Under the pieces are notes generated by a model that ran no database searches, had not been told where the DNA came from, and was given only the letters and a program-made list of their open reading frames with translations. Shown one piece after another: positions 52,872-60,719 of a stretch of DNA of 64,000 nucleotides (positions are counted from its first letter, which is position 1; each line of letters starts with the position of its first letter). The stretch comes from Asanoa sp. WMMD1127 (GTDB lineage: Bacteria > Actinomycetota > Actinomycetes > Mycobacteriales > Micromonosporaceae), in contig NZ_JARUBP010000001.1 of the NCBI RefSeq assembly GCF_029626225.1, positions 6,696,001-6,760,000 on the forward strand. Direction: 5' to 3'. Made by a program: the position numbers and the translations under genes.

Positions 52872-55127
52872 TCAGCGAATCACCGAGGTGCGCCGCCCCC
52901 GAAGCCGCGGCCACTTGCCCTTGCCCTGCTTGCCGTCGTCCGCCGCTTCCTCATCACCGGGTACGGCCGACCGGGGCGCCTTCGGATCCACCGGCGCCGC
53001 GGGCGGGGCCTCCCGCCCGTCGCCACCGTCGGGCGCGCCGGGCCGCAGCGACGGCAACCCCCCGGTCCCCGCCGTCTCGCCGACCGCGGAGCTCAGCCCG
53101 TTGTCGCCCACATCGGCCTTGGCCGACAACCCACTCGGACCCGGCGGTACGCCCTGCGCGTCACCGTCACCGGCCGCGCCCCCGCTCGACCCGCTTCCGC
53201 GCCGCTTCCCGCCCTTCGCCGCCCCTGGGGCGCCGGTATGACCAGATGGGCTGCTGTCGGCGTTCTCAGCCGCCTTGCCGTCGCCGGACCGCTTCCCGCG
53301 GCCGCCCTCGGCCGAACCGCTGTCGCCGGCCGCCTGGCCGCCGCCCTGCCGCGCGCCGTTGTCACCGGGACGCCCACCACCGGGAGAACGCCCGGCCGCG
53401 TTACCCGACCGCCCAGCCGGCGCAGCCTTGGGCGCCGGCCCGTTGCCACCGTTGGTCGTCGGCGCCGGCGCCCGCCCGGTGATCGGCACCCCGGTACGTC
53501 CGCTCTGCCCCGCCCGCGCAGCGCTCCCGTTGCCGGGCGTGGCCACCCGACCCGCGGCCGGTCCGGCCCCGTTCCTGTCGGCCGCCGCCCCGCCTGGCTG
53601 AGCGCCTGTCCCATCGCCGCGCTGGCCGGAAGCCGCGCCGCCTGGCTGACCGCCGGTCCCATCGCAGCTCTGGCCCGCACCGTTCGCGGACTTCCCCACG
53701 AAGCCGTTCGAACCCGCCTGCCCGCTGGAGGTGGCCGCGGCCGACCCGGCCGCCGGCGCCTTGCCCGCACCCGGCTCGTTCGCCTGGCCATTGCCACGGC
53801 TCGAATCGGCCTGGCCCTTGCCCGCACCACCGGCGGCCGGGCCTGATGCCGATGAGCCCGCAGCGCGCGGCTTGCCGCCGTCGCCCTGGGTGCGCCCAGG
53901 AGCCGCACCCGCCGAGGCGGGACCAGCCGCAGGAGACTTCGCCGCGCCGGGAGCGCCCGCCGCCGAGGACTGACTACCGTTGGCACCCGCCGAGCCAGCA
54001 GGACCCTGCCCACCCGAGGCCCCCGTCGAACCACCAGCCGGCGACTTCGCCGCGCCAGAAGCGCCCGCCGCTGAAGGCTGGCTGCCATTGGGGCCCGCTG
54101 GACCCCGCGCACCCGACGTACCAGCGGCCGACTTCGCCGCGCCGGGCGCGCCCGAGCCCCGCGGGCCGGCGCCGTTGCCGGCGTCCGACCCTGCCGGCGA
54201 CTTCGCGGCCGGCTTGCCTCCGGTCGCGGTGGGTGGCTTGCTGGTGCTGCCGGGCACGCCGGCGCGCCCCGTCGCCTTCTGCGCGGCACCGCCGCCGCCG
54301 GACGCCGGGCCGGCGTGGCTGCCCTTCGCAGGAGAGACGTCCTTGGCCGACCCGCCCTTGCCGCGCCCCTTGCCCAGCAACCCGCCCTTGCCGAACAGGC
54401 CGCCGGCCTTGCCCTCCTTCGAGTGCGACGACTCCGGCGCCGCAGCGCTCGGAGCCGACCCGCTGATCGGCGCGGCGTTGTGCACCGGTGCCACCTCGCC
54501 GTTGACGGGGGTGGGCGCCGGGCGACCGGCCGCAGCAGCGTCGTGCCGTGCCGCCGCCGCGTTGCCCTGCACTGCGGGCTTGCTCGCGTCGTGGTGGCCG
54601 CCGCCGTCGTTGCGCTGGGTGCCCGCACCCGCGCGAGACCCCGCCGCGGAGGAGGCTCCGGCATTCGAGGGGGCTTTGGCCGGGGAAGCGGGGGCCGCGG
54701 CGGGCTCGAACGTGATCGTGGAGAGGACCTGGTCCGCGTTCTCCTCGCGGCGGCGACGGGCGGCCAGGGCGAGCTCGAAGTCGCGGCGGGCGTTCACCGC
54801 GTCGTGGTAGGCCTCCGCGCGGATCCGCTGGGCGTCCTCGCGGGCCTTGGCCACCACCTCCCGCGCCTCGGCGATGATCTCGGCCGCCTCTTCCTCGGCC
54901 AGCATGACCATCTGCTGTACGCGGGCCGTGTTCCGGTATACCGCGGGGCGCGAGCGCAGCATCTCGTGCAGGCGTTCGGCTTCGGCGCGGACCATGCCCA
55001 GTTCGACCCGCATCGTGGCGGCGCTCTCAGCCTGCGCGGTGGCGCTCGCGAGCTGCTCGCCCAGGTCCAGAAGGCAACTGTCGACCTCGTCGCGGTCGTA
55101 GCCGGATTCGACGATGGAGAAGTCCAT
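52872..55127 (-). CDS. DivIVA-like coiled-coil protein with giant disordered tail
   Basis: A 751-residue protein. Residues 1-140 are a DivIVA-type module: MDFSIVESGYDRDEVDSCLL (membrane-binding start), coiled coil with YRNTARVQQMVMLAEEEAAE and RIRAEAYHDAVNARRDFELA. Residues 141-751 are an Ala/Gly/Pro/Ser-rich disordered tail with recurrent phrases such as GAPGAAKSPA and GKGGLLGKGRGKGG, ending in a basic WPRLRGRRTSVIR. DivIVA relatives mark curved membranes and poles and recruit wall-synthesis factors. Typical actinobacterial members have shorter tails. ATG 55127 with GGGGGCGAG a few nt upstream. The role of the tail is unknown; condensate formation or long-range tethering is speculative. Confidence 0.82.
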   Translation of the reverse strand: MDFSIVESGYDRDEVDSCLLDLGEQLASATAQAESAATMRVELGMVRAEAERLHEMLRSRPAVYRNTARVQQMVMLAEEEAAEIIAEAREVVAKAREDAQRIRAEAYHDAVNARRDFELALAARRRREENADQVLSTITFEPAAAPASPAKAPSNAGASSAAGSRAGAGTQRNDGGGHHDASKPAVQGNAAAARHDAAAAGRPAPTPVNGEVAPVHNAAPISGSAPSAAAPESSHSKEGKAGGLFGKGGLLGKGRGKGGSAKDVSPAKGSHAGPASGGGGAAQKATGRAGVPGSTSKPPTATGGKPAAKSPAGSDAGNGAGPRGSGAPGAAKSAAGTSGARGPAGPNGSQPSAAGASGAAKSPAGGSTGASGGQGPAGSAGANGSQSSAAGAPGAAKSPAAGPASAGAAPGRTQGDGGKPRAAGSSASGPAAGGAGKGQADSSRGNGQANEPGAGKAPAAGSAAATSSGQAGSNGFVGKSANGAGQSCDGTGGQPGGAASGQRGDGTGAQPGGAAADRNGAGPAAGRVATPGNGSAARAGQSGRTGVPITGRAPAPTTNGGNGPAPKAAPAGRSGNAAGRSPGGGRPGDNGARQGGGQAAGDSGSAEGGRGKRSGDGKAAENADSSPSGHTGAPGAAKGGKRRGSGSSGGAAGDGDAQGVPPGPSGLSAKADVGDNGLSSAVGETAGTGGLPSLRPGAPDGGDGREAPPAAPVDPKAPRSAVPGDEEAADDGKQGKGKWPRLRGRRTSVIR

Positions 55128-55237
55128 TAGCTCGCCCCCAGGTAGCCAGTCGTATCCCCTCCCGGCCATCCTCCCGAGGCATTACCCCGTTTCGGGCCGT
55201 TTCGCGGAATTAAATCCACATTGGCCCGCGGGGGCGG

Positions 55238-55579
55238 CTACGTGTCGATGTCGTCGCTCAACAGCGTGTCCAGCCCACTGATCTTGAGTACGCGCGCCAC
55301 GACTCCCCGCGCGCCGGTCAGCCGCAGGGAGCCCCCGGCAGCCGAGCTGAGGTGATGACCGCGGATGAAGGCCGACATTCCGGTTGAGTCACAGAACGTC
55401 ACAGCCCGAAGATCGATAACGATCAGGGTACGGCCGTCGCCGAGCACCTCGTCGATGCGCTCACCAAGGTACGGCGCGGTGCTCAGGTCGAGCTCGCCGG
55501 CCAACCGCAGCACCACCACATCGGGCCGGTCGTCCCGGCTGACCGTCAATGTGACGGGGGCGTCGTCAATCGTTGCCAC
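55238..55579 (-). CDS. STAS-domain anti-sigma factor antagonist
   Basis: A 113-residue STAS protein. VVLRLAGELDLSTAPYLGERID and IDLRAVTFCDSTGMSAFIRG are the core; Ser 65 in CDSTG is the phosphorylation site in this family. Such proteins bind anti-sigma factors when unphosphorylated and release a sigma factor. No anti-sigma or sigma gene is adjacent. The GTG start at 55579 has no clear ribosome site; a TATATC-like element lies just upstream, so a leaderless transcript is possible. Confidence 0.88.
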   Translation of the reverse strand: MATIDDAPVTLTVSRDDRPDVVVLRLAGELDLSTAPYLGERIDEVLGDGRTLIVIDLRAVTFCDSTGMSAFIRGHHLSSAAGGSLRLTGARGVVARVLKISGLDTLLSDDIDT

Positions 55580-55862
55580 CTAGCAAGGATATAGCTCAGC
55601 AGGCCGCGCCGCGCCCCGGGTACGACCACCAGATTACGCACCCACCGAGGACCGGACCCCGGTAACCGACCAACCACTTCGGACCAGGCACGAAACCCGC
55701 CGCCCACACCCCGATAGCGGACGCGAGGCGACCGGATTCCCCGTCTCGCGGCACCCAAACGTCCAACCAAGACGCGGTCCCCACGGCCAGCCACAGAGAG
55801 CGACCATCAGCGACGGGCGACGGACAAAGCCTCGACGTGCGACACCGCGGCATCGAGATCAA
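55580..55862. other. 283-bp gap before the STAS gene
   Basis: Between the 3' end of ppgK and the STAS gene, both on the minus strand. It has a mild Asn/Asp-type codon mix but no frame that looks like a gene. The STAS promoter is presumably at the left end (see TATATC just upstream of 55579). No repeat or hairpin was noted. Confidence 0.5.
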
Positions 55863-57776
55863 TCAGGTGGACCGCTTCGCGGCCTTGCGCGTCGCCGTCT
55901 TGCGCACCGGGCTCGTCGCCCTGGCCGACGACGGCGTCCGGCGCGCCGCGCTGGTCGTCTTGCGCGCGGCGCTCGTGGACTTGCGGCCCGAGGTGGACTT
56001 GCGCGCGCCTGCGGACTTGCGCCCCGCGCCGCCGCGGGCGGTGCTGGCCTTGCGGGCCGTGCCGGACCGGCGGGCCGGCCCGGTGGACGCCTTGCGCGGC
56101 GCGGTCGACTTCCGGGCGGTCGTCGACGTGCGGGTCGCCGGCGCCTTGCGAGCCGCCGACTTGCGTGGCGTCGACGCCTTACGGCCGCTCGACTTCCGCG
56201 CCGACGTCGACTTGCTCGCCGTCGACTTCCGAGGCGCGGCCGACGCGCCGGCCGTCGACTTCCGGGCCGAGGTGGACCTGCTCGCCGTCGACTTCCGAGC
56301 CGACGTCGACTTACTCGCCGCCGACTTCCGAGCCGACGTCGACCTGCCCACCGTCGACTTACTCGGCGTGCCAGCCTTACTCGCCGTCGACTTGCGCGGC
56401 GCGGCCGCCTCGCTCGCCGTCGACTTCCGCGGTATACCGGCCCTACTCGCCGTCGACTTCTGCGGTGTACTGGCCCTGCTCGCCGTCGACTTGCGCTGCG
56501 TGCCAGCCCTACTCGCCGCCGACTTCCGCGCGGACGTCGACTTGCGCACCGTCGACTTACTCGGCGTGCCAGCCTTACTCACCGCCGATTTGCGCGCCGA
56601 CGTGGACCTGCTTCCCGCCGACTTGCGTGGCGTGGCCGCCTTGGTCGCCGTCGACCTGCTCGCCGACGCGGACTTGCTCGCGGACGTGGACTTCCGCGCC
56701 CCAGTCGACTTCCGCGCCCCAGTCGACTTCCGCGCCCCGGCCGACTTGCTCGCGCCAGCCGACCTGCTCGCGCCACCCGACTTGCTCGCCGTCGAAGCCT
56801 TGCTCGCCGACGAAGCCCTGCGCGGCGACGTCGACTTCCCCGCCGAAGCCTTGCTCGGCGATGTCGACTTCCCGGCCGCCGTGGCCTTGCGACCACTCGA
56901 AGCCTTCCGCGGCGTCATCGACGTGGCCGCCGCGCGGCCGGGGCCCGAAGCCGCCTTGCGGGCCGTGGAAGCCTTGCGCGGCGCCGACTTGCGGGCCTCC
57001 CCACCGCCCGCCGCCCCGTCGCCGACCATGCGCCCGTCGCGCGCCTGCGGCGTCGCCAGCGCCGCGCCGATGATCCCGGCGTTGTTGAGCAGCATCGCCG
57101 GCACGACGGGGGTCTCGATGTCGAGGCGGGACAGGAAGTTGTCGGACTTGCGGCTCACGCCACCACCCACGATGAACAGGTCAGGGCTGAGCAGCTGCTC
57201 GAGGTGCTGCAGATACTTGCGTACCCGCTTGGACCAGGCGCCCCAGCCGAGGTCCTCCTCCTGGCGCACGCGGGCGGCCGCACGCTTCTCGGCGTCGACG
57301 CCGTGCATCTTGATGTGACCGAACTCGGTGTTGGGCACGAGCTTGCCGTCGATGAAGACGGCGCTGCCGATGCCGGTGCCGAACGTCAGCATCACCACCT
57401 TGCCCTGGTGGCCCTTGCCGGCGCCGAACGCCATCTCGGCCAGGCCGGCCGCGTCGGCATCGTTGATCAGCGCGACCGGGCTGCCGATCTCCTGCGAGAA
57501 GAGTTTGGCGCCCTCGGTGTTCATCCACGACTTGTCGACGTTGGCCGCGGTGCGCACAACGCCGTTCTGGATCACGCCAGGGAACGTGATCCCGACCCGC
57601 TCGGGGCTGGAGCCGAAGTGGCGGACCACCTCACCGACGGCCGATACGACGCTCTTCACGTTGGAAGGCTGCGGCGTGTCCACCCGGAAGCGTTCGCCGA
57701 CGAGCTCGCCGCGCTTGATGTCGACCAGCGCGCCCTTGATGCCCGAGCCGCCGATGTCGATGCCGATAAACGCCAT
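55863..57776 (-). CDS. ppgK: Polyphosphate glucokinase fused to histone-H1-like tail
   Basis: A 637-residue protein. Residues 1-243 are a polyphosphate glucokinase of the ROK family, which phosphorylates glucose with inorganic polyphosphate (or ATP): phosphate loop IGIDIGGSGIKGALVDI, VALINDADAAGLAEMAF with the catalytic Asp 106, VMLTFGTGIGSAVF, NTEFGHIKMHG and SPDLFIVGGGVSRKSDNF. From about residue 258 to the end is a 380-residue Lys/Arg/Ser/Thr/Ala tail built of short imperfect repeats such as ARKSTASK and SKAGTPSKST, like bacterial histone-H1-type domains. There is no stop or frameshift between the parts. Family enzymes are usually 250-270 residues. The tail could hold polyphosphate or DNA. 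Confidence 0.88.
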   Translation of the reverse strand: MAFIGIDIGGSGIKGALVDIKRGELVGERFRVDTPQPSNVKSVVSAVGEVVRHFGSSPERVGITFPGVIQNGVVRTAANVDKSWMNTEGAKLFSQEIGSPVALINDADAAGLAEMAFGAGKGHQGKVVMLTFGTGIGSAVFIDGKLVPNTEFGHIKMHGVDAEKRAAARVRQEEDLGWGAWSKRVRKYLQHLEQLLSPDLFIVGGGVSRKSDNFLSRLDIETPVVPAMLLNNAGIIGAALATPQARDGRMVGDGAAGGGEARKSAPRKASTARKAASGPGRAAATSMTPRKASSGRKATAAGKSTSPSKASAGKSTSPRRASSASKASTASKSGGASRSAGASKSAGARKSTGARKSTGARKSTSASKSASASRSTATKAATPRKSAGSRSTSARKSAVSKAGTPSKSTVRKSTSARKSAASRAGTQRKSTASRASTPQKSTASRAGIPRKSTASEAAAPRKSTASKAGTPSKSTVGRSTSARKSAASKSTSARKSTASRSTSARKSTAGASAAPRKSTASKSTSARKSSGRKASTPRKSAARKAPATRTSTTARKSTAPRKASTGPARRSGTARKASTARGGAGRKSAGARKSTSGRKSTSAARKTTSAARRTPSSARATSPVRKTATRKAAKRST

Positions 57777-57847
57777 GAATTCACGTTACGCCCGGTACGG
57801 GCGTTGCGCAGGGATTCCTCACGGACCACTCAGCGCTCCGGTCCAGC

Positions 57848-59995
57848 TCAGGACAGGGGTGGCGGCGTCAGTTTGCGCTTATCCACAGTGGATTCGGAAG
57901 TGCGGCTGTAGCGCCGCTCGCCGGCATTCGCCCGCCGGCTGCCGACCCAGGTCGCGGCCGGTGGCTGCCCGCCGACGTCCCGCGGCGCCCGGGTGCCCGC
58001 GTCGGCCGAGGGAGGCGGGACCGACGCATCGTCGTGCGGCGGCACCGTGTCATGGTCCCCGGCGCGCGACTCGTCGAGCACCTCGCCGACGATCTCGGTG
58101 GCATCCTCGCCGGAGGACTCGGTCGTCGCGACCTCCGCACCGTGCGCCGCCGCGCTCTGCGTCGACACCCCTGCCACCAGCCCACCGGCCACGGCGCCGC
58201 ACCCGACCGCGGTGGCGCCGCCGATCACGCCGGCATGCGAGTGGCATCCACCGGTAAAGGCAGCACGGACCCGAGCCCCCAACCCCGGCGCACCCGCTCC
58301 AGCCGCACCCGCGCCAACGGCACCTGCACCAGCGGCACCCGCGCCGACCGCCCCGGCACCAGCCGCACCCGCTCCAGCCGCACCCCCGCCTGCCGCACCC
58401 GCGGCCGGCCGAGGCCCGGCGCCGAGCAGATGACCGTAAGCCCCGACCGGCAGGCTCGCGAAGGTAGGCGCCACGCCGTCCCCGGACCCATGCCCGGCGC
58501 CAAGTAGGTGGCCATAAGCCCCGACCGGCAAGCTCGCGAAGTAGGGAGCAGGACCGCCACCCGTCTCCGGCAGCACCACCGGCGCCGACCCGGGCCCGCC
58601 CAGCGGAGGCGGCCCCGCCGACAGCGGCCGACCGCCGGGCGCCGGCTCCATCAGCCGCCGCGACGGCGGACCCAACGGCGGCGACGGCGTCGCGAACTCC
58701 GGCGCCGCCCCGGCCGCCGTGATCGGTCCGGGATACCCACCGGGCCCGACATCCGCCGCACCCGACGGCACAGCCACCCCACCGTCCATCGAAGCCATCG
58801 CCGGCGACGCACCTCGCCGCGGCAAAGACGGAGCGGCCGAGCTGCCAGCGGACCCCGAGGACAGCGCCGGGACCGCCACACCAAGGCCAGGACCAACACC
58901 AACACCCACCGGCGACCGACGCCCGGCCTCCTCCGCCTCGGCCGAGCCCTCGTCCGCCGCCGCCTCCTCACGCACGGCGTTGCGGATCGCGAACTCCAGC
59001 GCCGCCAACAGCAGCAGGTCGATCAGCAGCGCCGGGATGGCGGCGAACTGGTACACCGCGAACTCGAACACGCGGGTCAGCAGCAGGTCGATCAGCACGG
59101 CCCGCTGCAGCCACCGGTACCCCGTCACCCGTCGCTTCTGCCGCAGCCGCACCAGGCCCCAGACCACGCACGCGGCCGAGACCAGCGCGGACGCGCCGCC
59201 GACCGCGGTCGGCACGGGGTCGGTGAACCGGAGCACGACGTCGGCCCCGGCCTCCCGGGCCAGCAGCGCCGCGACGATCAGCAGGGAGATCGCCAGCGTC
59301 ACCACCGTCTGGATCAGCAGCACCACGATCGTCGCGATCATCGCCGGCCGGGTACGCAGCGCCCGCGCGATCCGGGCGGCCACGCGCGTGCCCATCTGGC
59401 TCACGTCGTACTTCTCGGCCCGGCCCTTCGGGATCTGGTGCACGAGGGCGGTCGCCGCGTCGGTGCCCGGCAGGCCGCCGGCCGCGTGCAACCGGCGCAG
59501 CGCCATCTCCCGCGAGTGGTCGGTCATGCCGTTGGTGACGCCGGCGGCGGCCGTGGTCAGCGCGGCCGCGTAGAGCTCACGGTCGCTGAGCGGGCGCCGC
59601 CCGTGCAGGGCGTGGATCCCGAGGACCAGCAGGACGATCACCACGTACATGATCGCGATGCTGGGGGTGAAGAAGTAGTCGTTGTCGGTGGTCAGGAACT
59701 TGCCGACCTCGTCGATGAACAGGCCGAACCCGACGCCGGCCAGGAACGACCCCAGGGGTCTGATCACCCGCCCGTTGAACGACAGCAGTCCCATCACGCC
59801 GACGGCCATCAGCAGGCCACCCCAGAGGACGTGCGCGATGTGCAGCCCGTCGCCGCCGAGGCGCGGATAGCCGGTGATGAACAGGGCGAACCGGATGGCC
59901 AGCACCGTCGCCACGGCGACGACGATGAACTCCATCAGCAGGGGCACGGCATTGGCGGCTCGCGGGAGCCCCCAGCGCACCAGGCGATCGCCCAC
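57848..59995 (-). CDS. Polytopic membrane protein with low-complexity tail
   Basis: A 715-residue protein. The first 345 residues have about nine helices in two groups (VVAVATVLAIRFALFITGY; AIMYVVIVLLVLGIHALH; MIATIVVLLIQTVVTLAISL; LVSAACVVWGLVRL; LLIDLLLLAALEFAIRNAV). The rest is a Pro/Gly/Ala-rich tail with a duplicated phrase, FASLPVGAYGHLLGAG (two copies), AGAGAVGAGAAGAG-type repeats and a short hydrophobic segment near the end (GGATAVGCGAVAGGLVAGV). Family not recognised. GTG 59995 is a choice; the open frame runs further upstream. It is 37 bp downstream of the CPBP gene, on the same strand. Confidence 0.7.
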   Translation of the reverse strand: MGDRLVRWGLPRAANAVPLLMEFIVVAVATVLAIRFALFITGYPRLGGDGLHIAHVLWGGLLMAVGVMGLLSFNGRVIRPLGSFLAGVGFGLFIDEVGKFLTTDNDYFFTPSIAIMYVVIVLLVLGIHALHGRRPLSDRELYAAALTTAAAGVTNGMTDHSREMALRRLHAAGGLPGTDAATALVHQIPKGRAEKYDVSQMGTRVAARIARALRTRPAMIATIVVLLIQTVVTLAISLLIVAALLAREAGADVVLRFTDPVPTAVGGASALVSAACVVWGLVRLRQKRRVTGYRWLQRAVLIDLLLTRVFEFAVYQFAAIPALLIDLLLLAALEFAIRNAVREEAAADEGSAEAEEAGRRSPVGVGVGPGLGVAVPALSSGSAGSSAAPSLPRRGASPAMASMDGGVAVPSGAADVGPGGYPGPITAAGAAPEFATPSPPLGPPSRRLMEPAPGGRPLSAGPPPLGGPGSAPVVLPETGGGPAPYFASLPVGAYGHLLGAGHGSGDGVAPTFASLPVGAYGHLLGAGPRPAAGAAGGGAAGAGAAGAGAVGAGAAGAGAVGAGAAGAGAPGLGARVRAAFTGGCHSHAGVIGGATAVGCGAVAGGLVAGVSTQSAAAHGAEVATTESSGEDATEIVGEVLDESRAGDHDTVPPHDDASVPPPSADAGTRAPRDVGGQPPAATWVGSRRANAGERRYSRTSESTVDKRKLTPPPLS
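57879..57887. promoter_or_regulatory. Single perfect DnaA box
   Basis: TTATCCACA lies inside the 3' end of the polytopic membrane protein gene. A single box is weak evidence, but it is the third place in the window with a perfect or near-perfect DnaA site. Confidence 0.3.
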
Positions 59996-60032
59996 GATTT
60001 CTTCGTACCAAATGCGAGTGAGATTCGCGGCA

Positions 60033-60719
60033 TTAACCCGAAATGGTCCAGAGCACCGCACCCAGCACGTACGCGAGGCCGTTCGTCGCCCAGTGCAGCC
60101 CGATCGGCGCGAGCAGACTCCCCGACCGCCACCGCAGCACCGCCAGCACCAGCCCCGCCAGCACGGTGACCACCACCGCCGAGACGGTCACCGCGAACGC
60201 CGCCGAACCGTAGACCTCGCCGACCACCCGGTTGTTGCCGCCGAGCCCGAGCGACGGCAGCACGTGCCACAACCCGAACAGCACGGACGAGACCCAACAG
60301 GCCCACCACGGCCCGCGCAGCCGGGCGACCATGCCCCAGACCACGCCGCGGAAGGCGACCTCTTCCAGCAGCACGGTCCCGACCGGCACGCCGACCAGCG
60401 CGGCGAACAACGCGCCGCCCACGCCCAACCGGGCCCGCTGGTCGAGAAAGGCGTCGCGTCCGGCAGGCACCGCCAGGGCCAGCAGGTAGACCACCAGCAC
60501 GAGCACCGCGGCGACCAGCGCCCACCGCGCTCCACGCCGCCACGAAGCCCGCGCCAGACCAAGATCAGCAAGCGACAGTCCGGCCGCCCGGGCCAGCCCG
60601 AGGAGCACCAGGACCTCCACCACCGAGATCCACGGGTACGCCCACGCGAGCGCGACATTGTTGAGGTAGTTCGCGACGCCGAGCACCGCGACCACCGCCA
60701 CCAACCACCGAACCCGCAC
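60033..60719 (-). CDS. CPBP (CAAX-type) intramembrane protease-like protein
   Basis: A 228-residue polytopic protein of the CPBP family. Motif 1 is LLEEVAFRGVVWGM (Glu 119, Glu 120, Arg 124), motif 2 is FGLWHVLPSLG (His 152) and motif 3 is IGLHWATNGLA. These are the metal/catalytic residues of intramembrane abortive-infection/CAAX proteases. The GTG start (VRVRWLVAVVAVLG) leads directly into the first helix. Substrate unknown. Located 37 bp upstream of the large membrane protein gene, so the two may be expressed together. Confidence 0.85.
   Translation of the reverse strand: MRVRWLVAVVAVLGVANYLNNVALAWAYPWISVVEVLVLLGLARAAGLSLADLGLARASWRRGARWALVAAVLVLVVYLLALAVPAGRDAFLDQRARLGVGGALFAALVGVPVGTVLLEEVAFRGVVWGMVARLRGPWWACWVSSVLFGLWHVLPSLGLGGNNRVVGEVYGSAAFAVTVSAVVVTVLAGLVLAVLRWRSGSLLAPIGLHWATNGLAYVLGAVLWTISG

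Follow-up and report, generated by a model that had tools for sequence, protein, structure and literature searches.

A long polycationic tail on the polyphosphate glucokinase of Asanoa, conserved in the genus and matched in another order: a candidate substrate tether

In the soil bacterium Asanoa (Micromonosporaceae), the polyphosphate glucokinase (PpgK) phosphorylates glucose at the expense of polyphosphate, a chain that is both long and negatively charged. The gene considered here lies in a stretch of 64,000 nucleotides (hereafter the window) that is part of a 7.97-Mb Asanoa genome. The gene, its parts and its neighbors are the following:

55863-57776, minus strand: ppgK open reading frame, 637 aa, ATG start, zero inner stops
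57051..57767, minus strand: PpgK catalytic domain (ROK-fold polyphosphate glucokinase), residues 4-242, delineated by NF045942, 1woq and pLDDT
57003..57050, minus strand: short linker from the domain to the basic part, roughly residues 243-258, placed by sequence and by pLDDT below 50 from residue 248
55866..57038 (stop codon 55863-55865), minus strand: polycationic, repeat-rich C-terminal tail, residues 247-637, recognized by composition, repeats, predicted disorder and presence in 6/6 Asanoa genomes
56184..56753, minus strand: repeat region with 33/66-bp units (11/22 aa), the unit and length varying between species
56040..56201, minus strand: tail core (residues 526-579), conserved and collinear across the six Asanoa species
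55238..55579, minus strand: STAS-domain protein downstream of ppgK (Pfam STAS, 67.5 bits), adjoining it in 6/6 Asanoa; context only
57848..60061, minus strand: upstream neighbor, 71 bases from ppgK, 737 aa, membrane-like, no Pfam match, present in 6/6 Asanoa; context only
52872-55169, minus strand: 765-aa protein two genes from ppgK, with a long Gly/Ala/Ser-rich low-complexity C-terminus and no Pfam match at 0.01

The upstream neighbor combines a hydrophobic N-terminal half with an Ala/Gly/Pro-rich C-terminal half. The 765-aa protein has what we take to be a DivIVA-like, coiled N-terminus, and this N-terminal part lies beside ppgK in the other five Asanoa genomes as well (in part only in G088). 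At the 46 loci compared outside Asanoa, where the flanks are of differing length, the sole match to any neighbor is a 36% STAS match.

The intact catalytic domain claimed by the first-pass annotation is borne out: the NCBIfam equivalog model NF045942 (polyphosphate--glucose phosphotransferase) matches residues 4-242 with 338.9 bits, against a cut-off of 250, and covers profile positions 3-241 of 242, a full-length match above the curated threshold that places the protein in the PpgK family. The closest solved relative of the domain is 1woq chain A (E 9.3e-85), and residues D7, G9, G10, N105, D106, E151 and H154 are invariant (n=10 sequences); we take these conserved sites to be the DIGG phosphate loop, the N-D pair and the E..H sugar site. 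In the AlphaFold model, built from a 10-sequence alignment, pLDDT is mostly >80 up to about residue 240, and ROK is the sole Pfam match on the whole protein, the tail being without any. By these sequence criteria, the catalytic part is an ordinary, intact polyphosphate glucokinase.

What follows the domain is far less ordinary. It had been proposed that the domain runs on without a stop into a Lys/Arg/Ser/Thr/Ala tail longer than the enzyme itself, and this is confirmed, with about 390 tail residues and a frame that is open in 6/6 Asanoa. The 391 residues past position 246 include K 48, R 52, S 89, T 50, A 88, G 32 and P 18, with D and E together accounting for 4 and hydrophobic residues for 8 of the 391, so that K+R make up 26% and the net charge is +96; GC3 is 0.90 in the tail and 0.935 in the domain. 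The basic part proper starts near residue 262, behind the short linker that contains D, G and E, and beyond residue 260 there is a single acidic residue, E456. Because of this near-absence of acidic residues, the acidic polyphosphate-binding motif known as PASK, defined in excerpts of PMC12345225 by 75% D/E/S/K in 20 residues, is not expected in the tail; the polyphosphate-binding CHAD domain (PF05235) is absent from the PpgK protein by Pfam, and PADLOC gave no match. Beyond residue 250, the model shows pLDDT of 30-40 and no secondary structure, and the tail is accordingly predicted to be disordered. The label 'histone-H1-like' that the tail had been given holds for composition and predicted disorder, given that the tail is long, basic, of low complexity and poor in acidic and hydrophobic residues, but does not hold for sequence profiles: the Hc2 model NF038052 scores the whole protein at 19.7 bits and the isolated tail at 21.5, far below its cut-off of 135, and Pfam finds nothing, which leaves the tail outside the HC2 family (PF07382, NF038052).

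All six Asanoa genomes encode the tail, with 391, 292, 271, 289, 281 and 605 residues after position 246, a net charge of +76 to +156 and 0-4 acidic residues per tail; the PpgK domain is 90% identical in Asanoa ishikariensis, hainanensis, iriomotensis and siamensis. Each of the 12 tandem-repeat rows found in 55500-57800, a good number of them overlapping, has a period divisible by 3, and the best-matching DNA shifts of the Asanoa tail repeats are multiples of three throughout. The best period itself is 11 aa in the present tail; four other species have 6 or 12 aa, and G088 has 29 or 58 aa. Different repeat units thus go with a similar composition across Asanoa, and therefore much of the tail was rebuilt species by species. 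Outside the core, it may be bulk charge rather than exact sequence that is kept, since period and length vary by species while the composition stays similar.

So could the tail be simply a nearly neutral, GC-rich minisatellite that happens to be in frame and is tolerated, its charge following incidentally from the repeat codons? In favor of this explanation are tandem repeats whose units differ from species to species, the large length range (271-605 aa) and the existence of another GC-rich array of this genome that is open in several frames (L178). The substitution pattern points the other way. For the core, pooled over 15 species pairs, pS is 0.377 and pN 0.073, and the resulting pN/pS of about 0.19, a simple count on sequence that is GC-rich, repetitive and partly alignment-dependent, is close to that of the PpgK domain over the 15 species pairs (pS 0.313, pN 0.057, pN/pS 0.183). 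In this frame test the core gives pN/pS of 0.18 when read as encoded, and four of the five other frames give 2.4-63; the fifth, antisense frame gives 0.31, but is not an independent control because it has wobble positions in common with the real frame and the ratio is low for the domain, too (0.36). The possibility that the tail is a reading-frame artefact is rejected by this frame specificity. In the closest Asanoa pair, pN/pS is 0.258 for the whole tail over 270 codons, and 0.274 on either side of the core. D or E is involved in 0 of the 38 amino-acid changes of this pair, where 7-10% would be the mutational expectation from the codons used; by itself, such avoidance is a weak sign of charge conservation (probability about 0.015-0.06 by simple arithmetic). 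Among the core columns, K/R are invariant in 15/18 and S/T/A in 17/29, and conservation of the basic residues is suggestive only. As judged from these comparisons of coding sequence, the tail is translated, and purifying selection acts on its core as on the enzyme domain. Constraint at this level, both in the core of six species and across the whole tail of the closest pair (0.26 when rounded), the retention of the tail without a stop in 6/6 Asanoa genomes and in 7/7 genomes of the second genus described below, and the occurrence of a single acidic residue past tail position 14 among about 2,050 tail residues from six species all speak against the tolerated minisatellite, which we regard as quite unlikely.

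The phyletic distribution of the tail is sharply bounded. In a Micromonosporaceae sample of 300 genomes out of a larger group, genera other than Asanoa contribute 114 PpgK rows at E < 1e-70, two of which are interrupted by an internal stop (G009, G094) and one of which lacks the first 27 residues (G025); the split gene G217 is additional. The tail is absent from the 12 non-Asanoa family members with open frames over 324 aa, which end 1-47 residues past the aligned domain; the remaining non-Asanoa frames have space for at most about 82 residues, and 24 of these that were read end within 10-36 residues. Of 121 family genomes, the six Asanoa alone match the tail core (E 3e-22 to 1.7e-12, the next match being at E 0.0027); in its own genome, where 150 of 441 candidates were scored, the tail retrieves no sequence but itself at E <= 1e-5. 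Thus, the comparison with other Micromonosporaceae that the first-pass annotation called for has a divided outcome: the tail is found in 6/6 Asanoa and in no other genus sampled, so that a family-wide feature is rejected for those genera. Absence from close relatives, which had been named as fatal to a functional reading, is nevertheless not the case, considering the six Asanoa genomes, the purifying selection on the core and a similar tail in a second genus. Because PpgK as a rule lacks a long tail, as the 114 family rows attest, the tail is not needed for catalysis.

At greater distances, a phylum sample of 396 genomes gave 89 rows above the cut-off, 88 besides the Asanoa query, and no long tail was found in any of the 19 with frames >=333 aa, the other rows having space for at most about 88 residues. 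A long open frame turned out to be a mostly misleading proxy for a tail, the extra length lying upstream of the match where the upstream part was fetched. Among the 88 loci taken for long frames (16 from the family, alongside which G088 was taken to complete an Asanoa tail and G217 as a split gene, 20 from the phylum, 32 from the class and 20 from family f91), there is one true long basic tail, at L121. Three other loci were dropped or not counted as basic tails: L071 (G217) for its split frame, L221 (G1064) with 224 residues of mixed charge (K+R 0.12, D+E 0.11), and L225 (G1153) with 73 mildly basic residues (K+R 0.15, D+E 0.08). Short charged ends also occur: the PpgK of a distant actinobacterium (L080, G582) ends in 27 residues that include the short Lys/His tail KKKHHHHKH, and that of L083 in an Arg-rich stretch of 25. 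In family f92 (L122, L125, L129, L138), PpgK ends in similar Arg-rich stretches of 30-31 aa (K+R 0.29-0.30), perhaps a third, minimal basic extension.

The basic tail of L121, 255 residues long, is the one case among 32 class loci (231 of 394 genomes in the class sample match, and among the matches listed there are 29 new loci with frames >=349 aa, to which three shorter ones were added). It led to genus g381 of family f91, which belongs to the same class as Asanoa but to another order, and in which PpgK carries a tail in 7/7 genomes (L141-L147), of 172, 404, 327, 251, 269, 254 and 250 residues. These tails contain R 33-73, K 2-10 and D+E 0-2, for a net charge of +34 to +73, and are built of Arg/Thr/Ser/Gly as against Arg/Lys/Ser/Ala in Asanoa. 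Much as in Asanoa, a variable stretch of repeats lies between conserved blocks, N-proximal on one side and C-terminal on the other. Constraint on the g381 tail is uneven: pN/pS is 0.23 in the N-proximal block and 0.46 in the C-terminal one, and it reaches 0.58 over the whole proximal stretch, with 0.29 in the domain. Family f91 has matches in 110/150 genomes, with 111 rows, 6 of them from g381; no basic tail was found in the 23 frames >=350 aa read among the 105 rows outside g381, which take in L221 and L225 with the ends given above, and the other 82 have space for up to about 108 residues.

Do the tails of the two genera share an ancestor? The Asanoa core and the g381 blocks have 12/29, 10/22 and 10/20 identities, which is the chance level (shuffled means 11.3, 10.1 and 9.0). 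Whole-tail comparisons of Asanoa with L146, L143 and L147 score above every single-residue and 3-residue-chunk shuffle, and the score is reached by 1, 0 and 1 of 60 shuffles in 5-residue chunks and by 12, 0 and 6 of 60 in 8-residue chunks, respectively. On this sequence evidence, the tails are probably convergent, with remote common descent of the repeats possible because some of the chunk-shuffled tails reach the alignment score. What is new here, as far as sequences tell, is a variant PpgK with a long basic tail that is conserved throughout one genus and unexpectedly matched in another order. No description of a long tail on PpgK was found in the literature searched, with most subscription journals outside that search; the excerpts of PMC12696579 contain no mention of one, and the partial sources retrieved for Asanoa together with polyphosphate included none on topic.

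To place the tail in its genomic context, other basic stretches have to be considered. Because HMMER discounts low complexity, a composition scan was run over 1,267,264 bases (~16% of the genome), comprising 60 stretches of 20 kb, one of them chosen for HU, together with the window and, for a second time, the HU locus. The scan flagged 56 segments of 80 residues. Six of these, with K >= 11, were accepted by eye and represent five proteins, HU being hit twice; the other 50 (K 0-3) were judged to be shadow frames or unresolved repeats, not checked singly, so that an Arg-only tail of the g381 kind would be missed. One scanned stretch, L178 (G000:C1:4200001-4220000), holds long Arg/Gly/Pro-coding tandem repeats that are open in several frames on both strands. 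The accepted Lys-containing H1-like stretches belong to HU, Ku (173 bits), a DksA/TraR zinc-finger protein, PpgK and a stand-alone HC2-like protein:

L201 19255-19998, minus strand: stand-alone H1-like protein, a 248-aa frame rich in K/T/A (HC2 48.4 bits, cut-off 40)

PpgK is the sole metabolic enzyme among the five proteins with at least 11 Lys per 80-residue segment in the 1.27 Mb scanned. With regard to polyphosphate, the genome encodes PPK1 and two PPK2, with a CYTH-CHAD protein following ppk1, and no basic tail was found on the PPK1 or PPK2 frames. The gene of HU with its H1-like tail (L093 1501-2079) lies ~5 kb from ppk1 (L094), at G000:C1 about 3.532-3.539 Mb, a polyphosphate and nucleoid gene neighborhood.

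Nucleoid tethering is the main rival to a polyphosphate tether. In that case, the tail would be a DNA anchor that places PpgK on the nucleoid, or bridges polyphosphate granules to DNA, and so ties glucose phosphorylation to chromatin or to nucleoid-associated granules. All other accepted Lys-containing stretches in the scanned 1.27 Mb sit on HU, Ku, the DksA-like protein and the H1-like protein, and the closest precedent, AlgP, is thought to bind DNA too (PMC9239181, in excerpt). However, these extensions differ from that of PpgK: the stretches of HU, Ku and the H1-like protein are K-dominated, with 19-22 Lys per 80-residue segment, against 11 in the PpgK tail, where R and K are about equal and arranged in short R-K-S/T units. 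An Asanoa tail has just 1-8 S/T-P-basic-basic motifs, and it is not obvious what a glucokinase would need DNA for. Taken together, these considerations make the DNA anchor fairly unlikely in our estimation.

Yet another possibility is that the tail is a regulatory switch in which R/K-K-S/T sites are phosphorylated by Hanks-type kinases, or lysines are acetylated, so that the charge is cancelled and the substrate released. The Asanoa tails contain 14-36 [RK]K[ST] motifs each, and in Streptomyces the CobB1 deacetylase acts on HupS, according to excerpted literature; the 2-10 Lys of the g381 tails, though, make lysine modification unlikely to be common to both lineages. We consider such a switch decidedly improbable; it is, in any case, not mutually exclusive with a polyphosphate tether. 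Finally, basic disordered regions can bind RNA. The tail might accordingly serve as a tag for RNA, ribosomes or condensates, or as an extension that aids solubility, any polyphosphate binding being incidental, and seven polyphosphate-binding proteins of E. coli are ribosome- or translation-linked (excerpts of PMC12345225), but this leaves unexplained why the same enzyme is tailed in two separate lineages and appears very improbable indeed.

In the hypothesis that we favor, the tail would tether PpgK to the very polymer it consumes, polyphosphate. According to excerpts of PMC9239181, the bacterial proteins with a known polyphosphate interaction are few, and little is understood of what the granules contain and how they are organized. 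Under this scenario, the C-terminus of an ordinary polyphosphate glucokinase was extended into a long disordered polycation that would bind the polyanionic substrate of PpgK itself, with two possible consequences: the chain could stay attached to the tail between rounds of transfer, which would confer processivity, or the tail could park PpgK on polyphosphate granules, where stored phosphate would be spent on glucose in place. We infer polyphosphate as the ligand of the tail and an effect of binding on catalysis or localization because the domain is complete, the tail is present in 6/6 Asanoa, its core is constrained and g381 carries a tail on the same enzyme; because the lone metabolic enzyme with an accepted Lys-containing H1-like stretch in the scanned 1.27 Mb is one that handles a polyanion; and because there are precedents in AlgP, actinobacterial TopA and E. 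coli PPX. That the polyphosphate makers of this genome, PPK1 and the two PPK2, lack a basic tail counts against the tether, as does the fact that DNA and RNA are also bound by polycations. Holding of polyphosphate with processivity, granule attachment and a nucleoid link, the three roles originally put forward, would each be compatible with the sequence data. All things considered, we judge a polyphosphate tether, whether for processivity or for granule anchoring, about equally apt to prove right or wrong. The more elaborate proposal, that PpgK evolved long H1-like polycation tails at least twice, as substrate tethers that turned a soluble kinase into a processive, granule-anchored one, is offered tentatively, as somewhat more apt to prove wrong. 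If true, it would imply a general route for targeting a metabolic enzyme to polyphosphate stores without a folded polyphosphate-binding domain. Should the simpler tether hypothesis hold, it would also provide a natural module for fixing enzymes onto polyphosphate. A selected polycation tail on a polyphosphate consumer in two lineages makes a concrete test of processivity and granule attachment possible.

How does this protein compare to known systems? The solved enzyme 1woq, an inorganic polyphosphate/ATP-glucomannokinase, has a catalytic domain homologous to PpgK residues 3-241, but its chain of 267 residues, with the match ending at residue 258, is without a long tail, unlike the Asanoa PpgK. 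The HU, Ku and DksA-like proteins of the same genome have low-complexity basic extensions with high GC3, as PpgK does, but are nucleic-acid or transcription proteins with K-dominated stretches, and that of the DksA-like protein precedes its zinc finger. The g381 enzymes share with Asanoa the PpgK domain followed by a basic low-complexity tail of 172-404 aa, and differ in residue usage and in conserved blocks that are at chance identity across the lineages. Topoisomerase I of actinobacteria is, like PpgK, an enzyme that works on a polyanion and has an H1-like C-terminal extension, in which Lys repeats give processivity; unlike PpgK, its substrate is DNA, the Streptomyces repeats span about 70 aa and are followed by two acidic residues, and the extension is general in actinobacterial TopA (all from excerpts of PMC7398561). 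Among enzymes of polyphosphate, the N-terminal ~300 residues of E. coli PPX have been defined as quasi-processive (PMC3411833, in excerpt), and the P. shermanii glucokinase works in both a processive and a non-processive manner, going by a title cited in PMC4252912. A simple charge model would be hard to square with E. coli YihI, whose polyphosphate gel shift is abolished by Lys-to-Arg changes (excerpts of PMC12345225), while the tails described here are half or mostly Arg. The closest likeness is to AlgP of Pseudomonas aeruginosa, which sits on polyphosphate granules and whose H1-like C-terminus is needed for granule spacing. As portrayed in excerpts of PMC9239181, it resembles the PpgK tail in being H1-like, predicted-disordered and basic, with a 154-aa KPAA repeat region and a net charge of +55 for the protein; the likeness is by description only, and AlgP differs in its KPAA lysine repeats and in an N-terminal helical domain of unknown function in place of a glucokinase. 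By analogy with what has been proposed for AlgP, one and the same PpgK tail could bind both polyphosphate and DNA.
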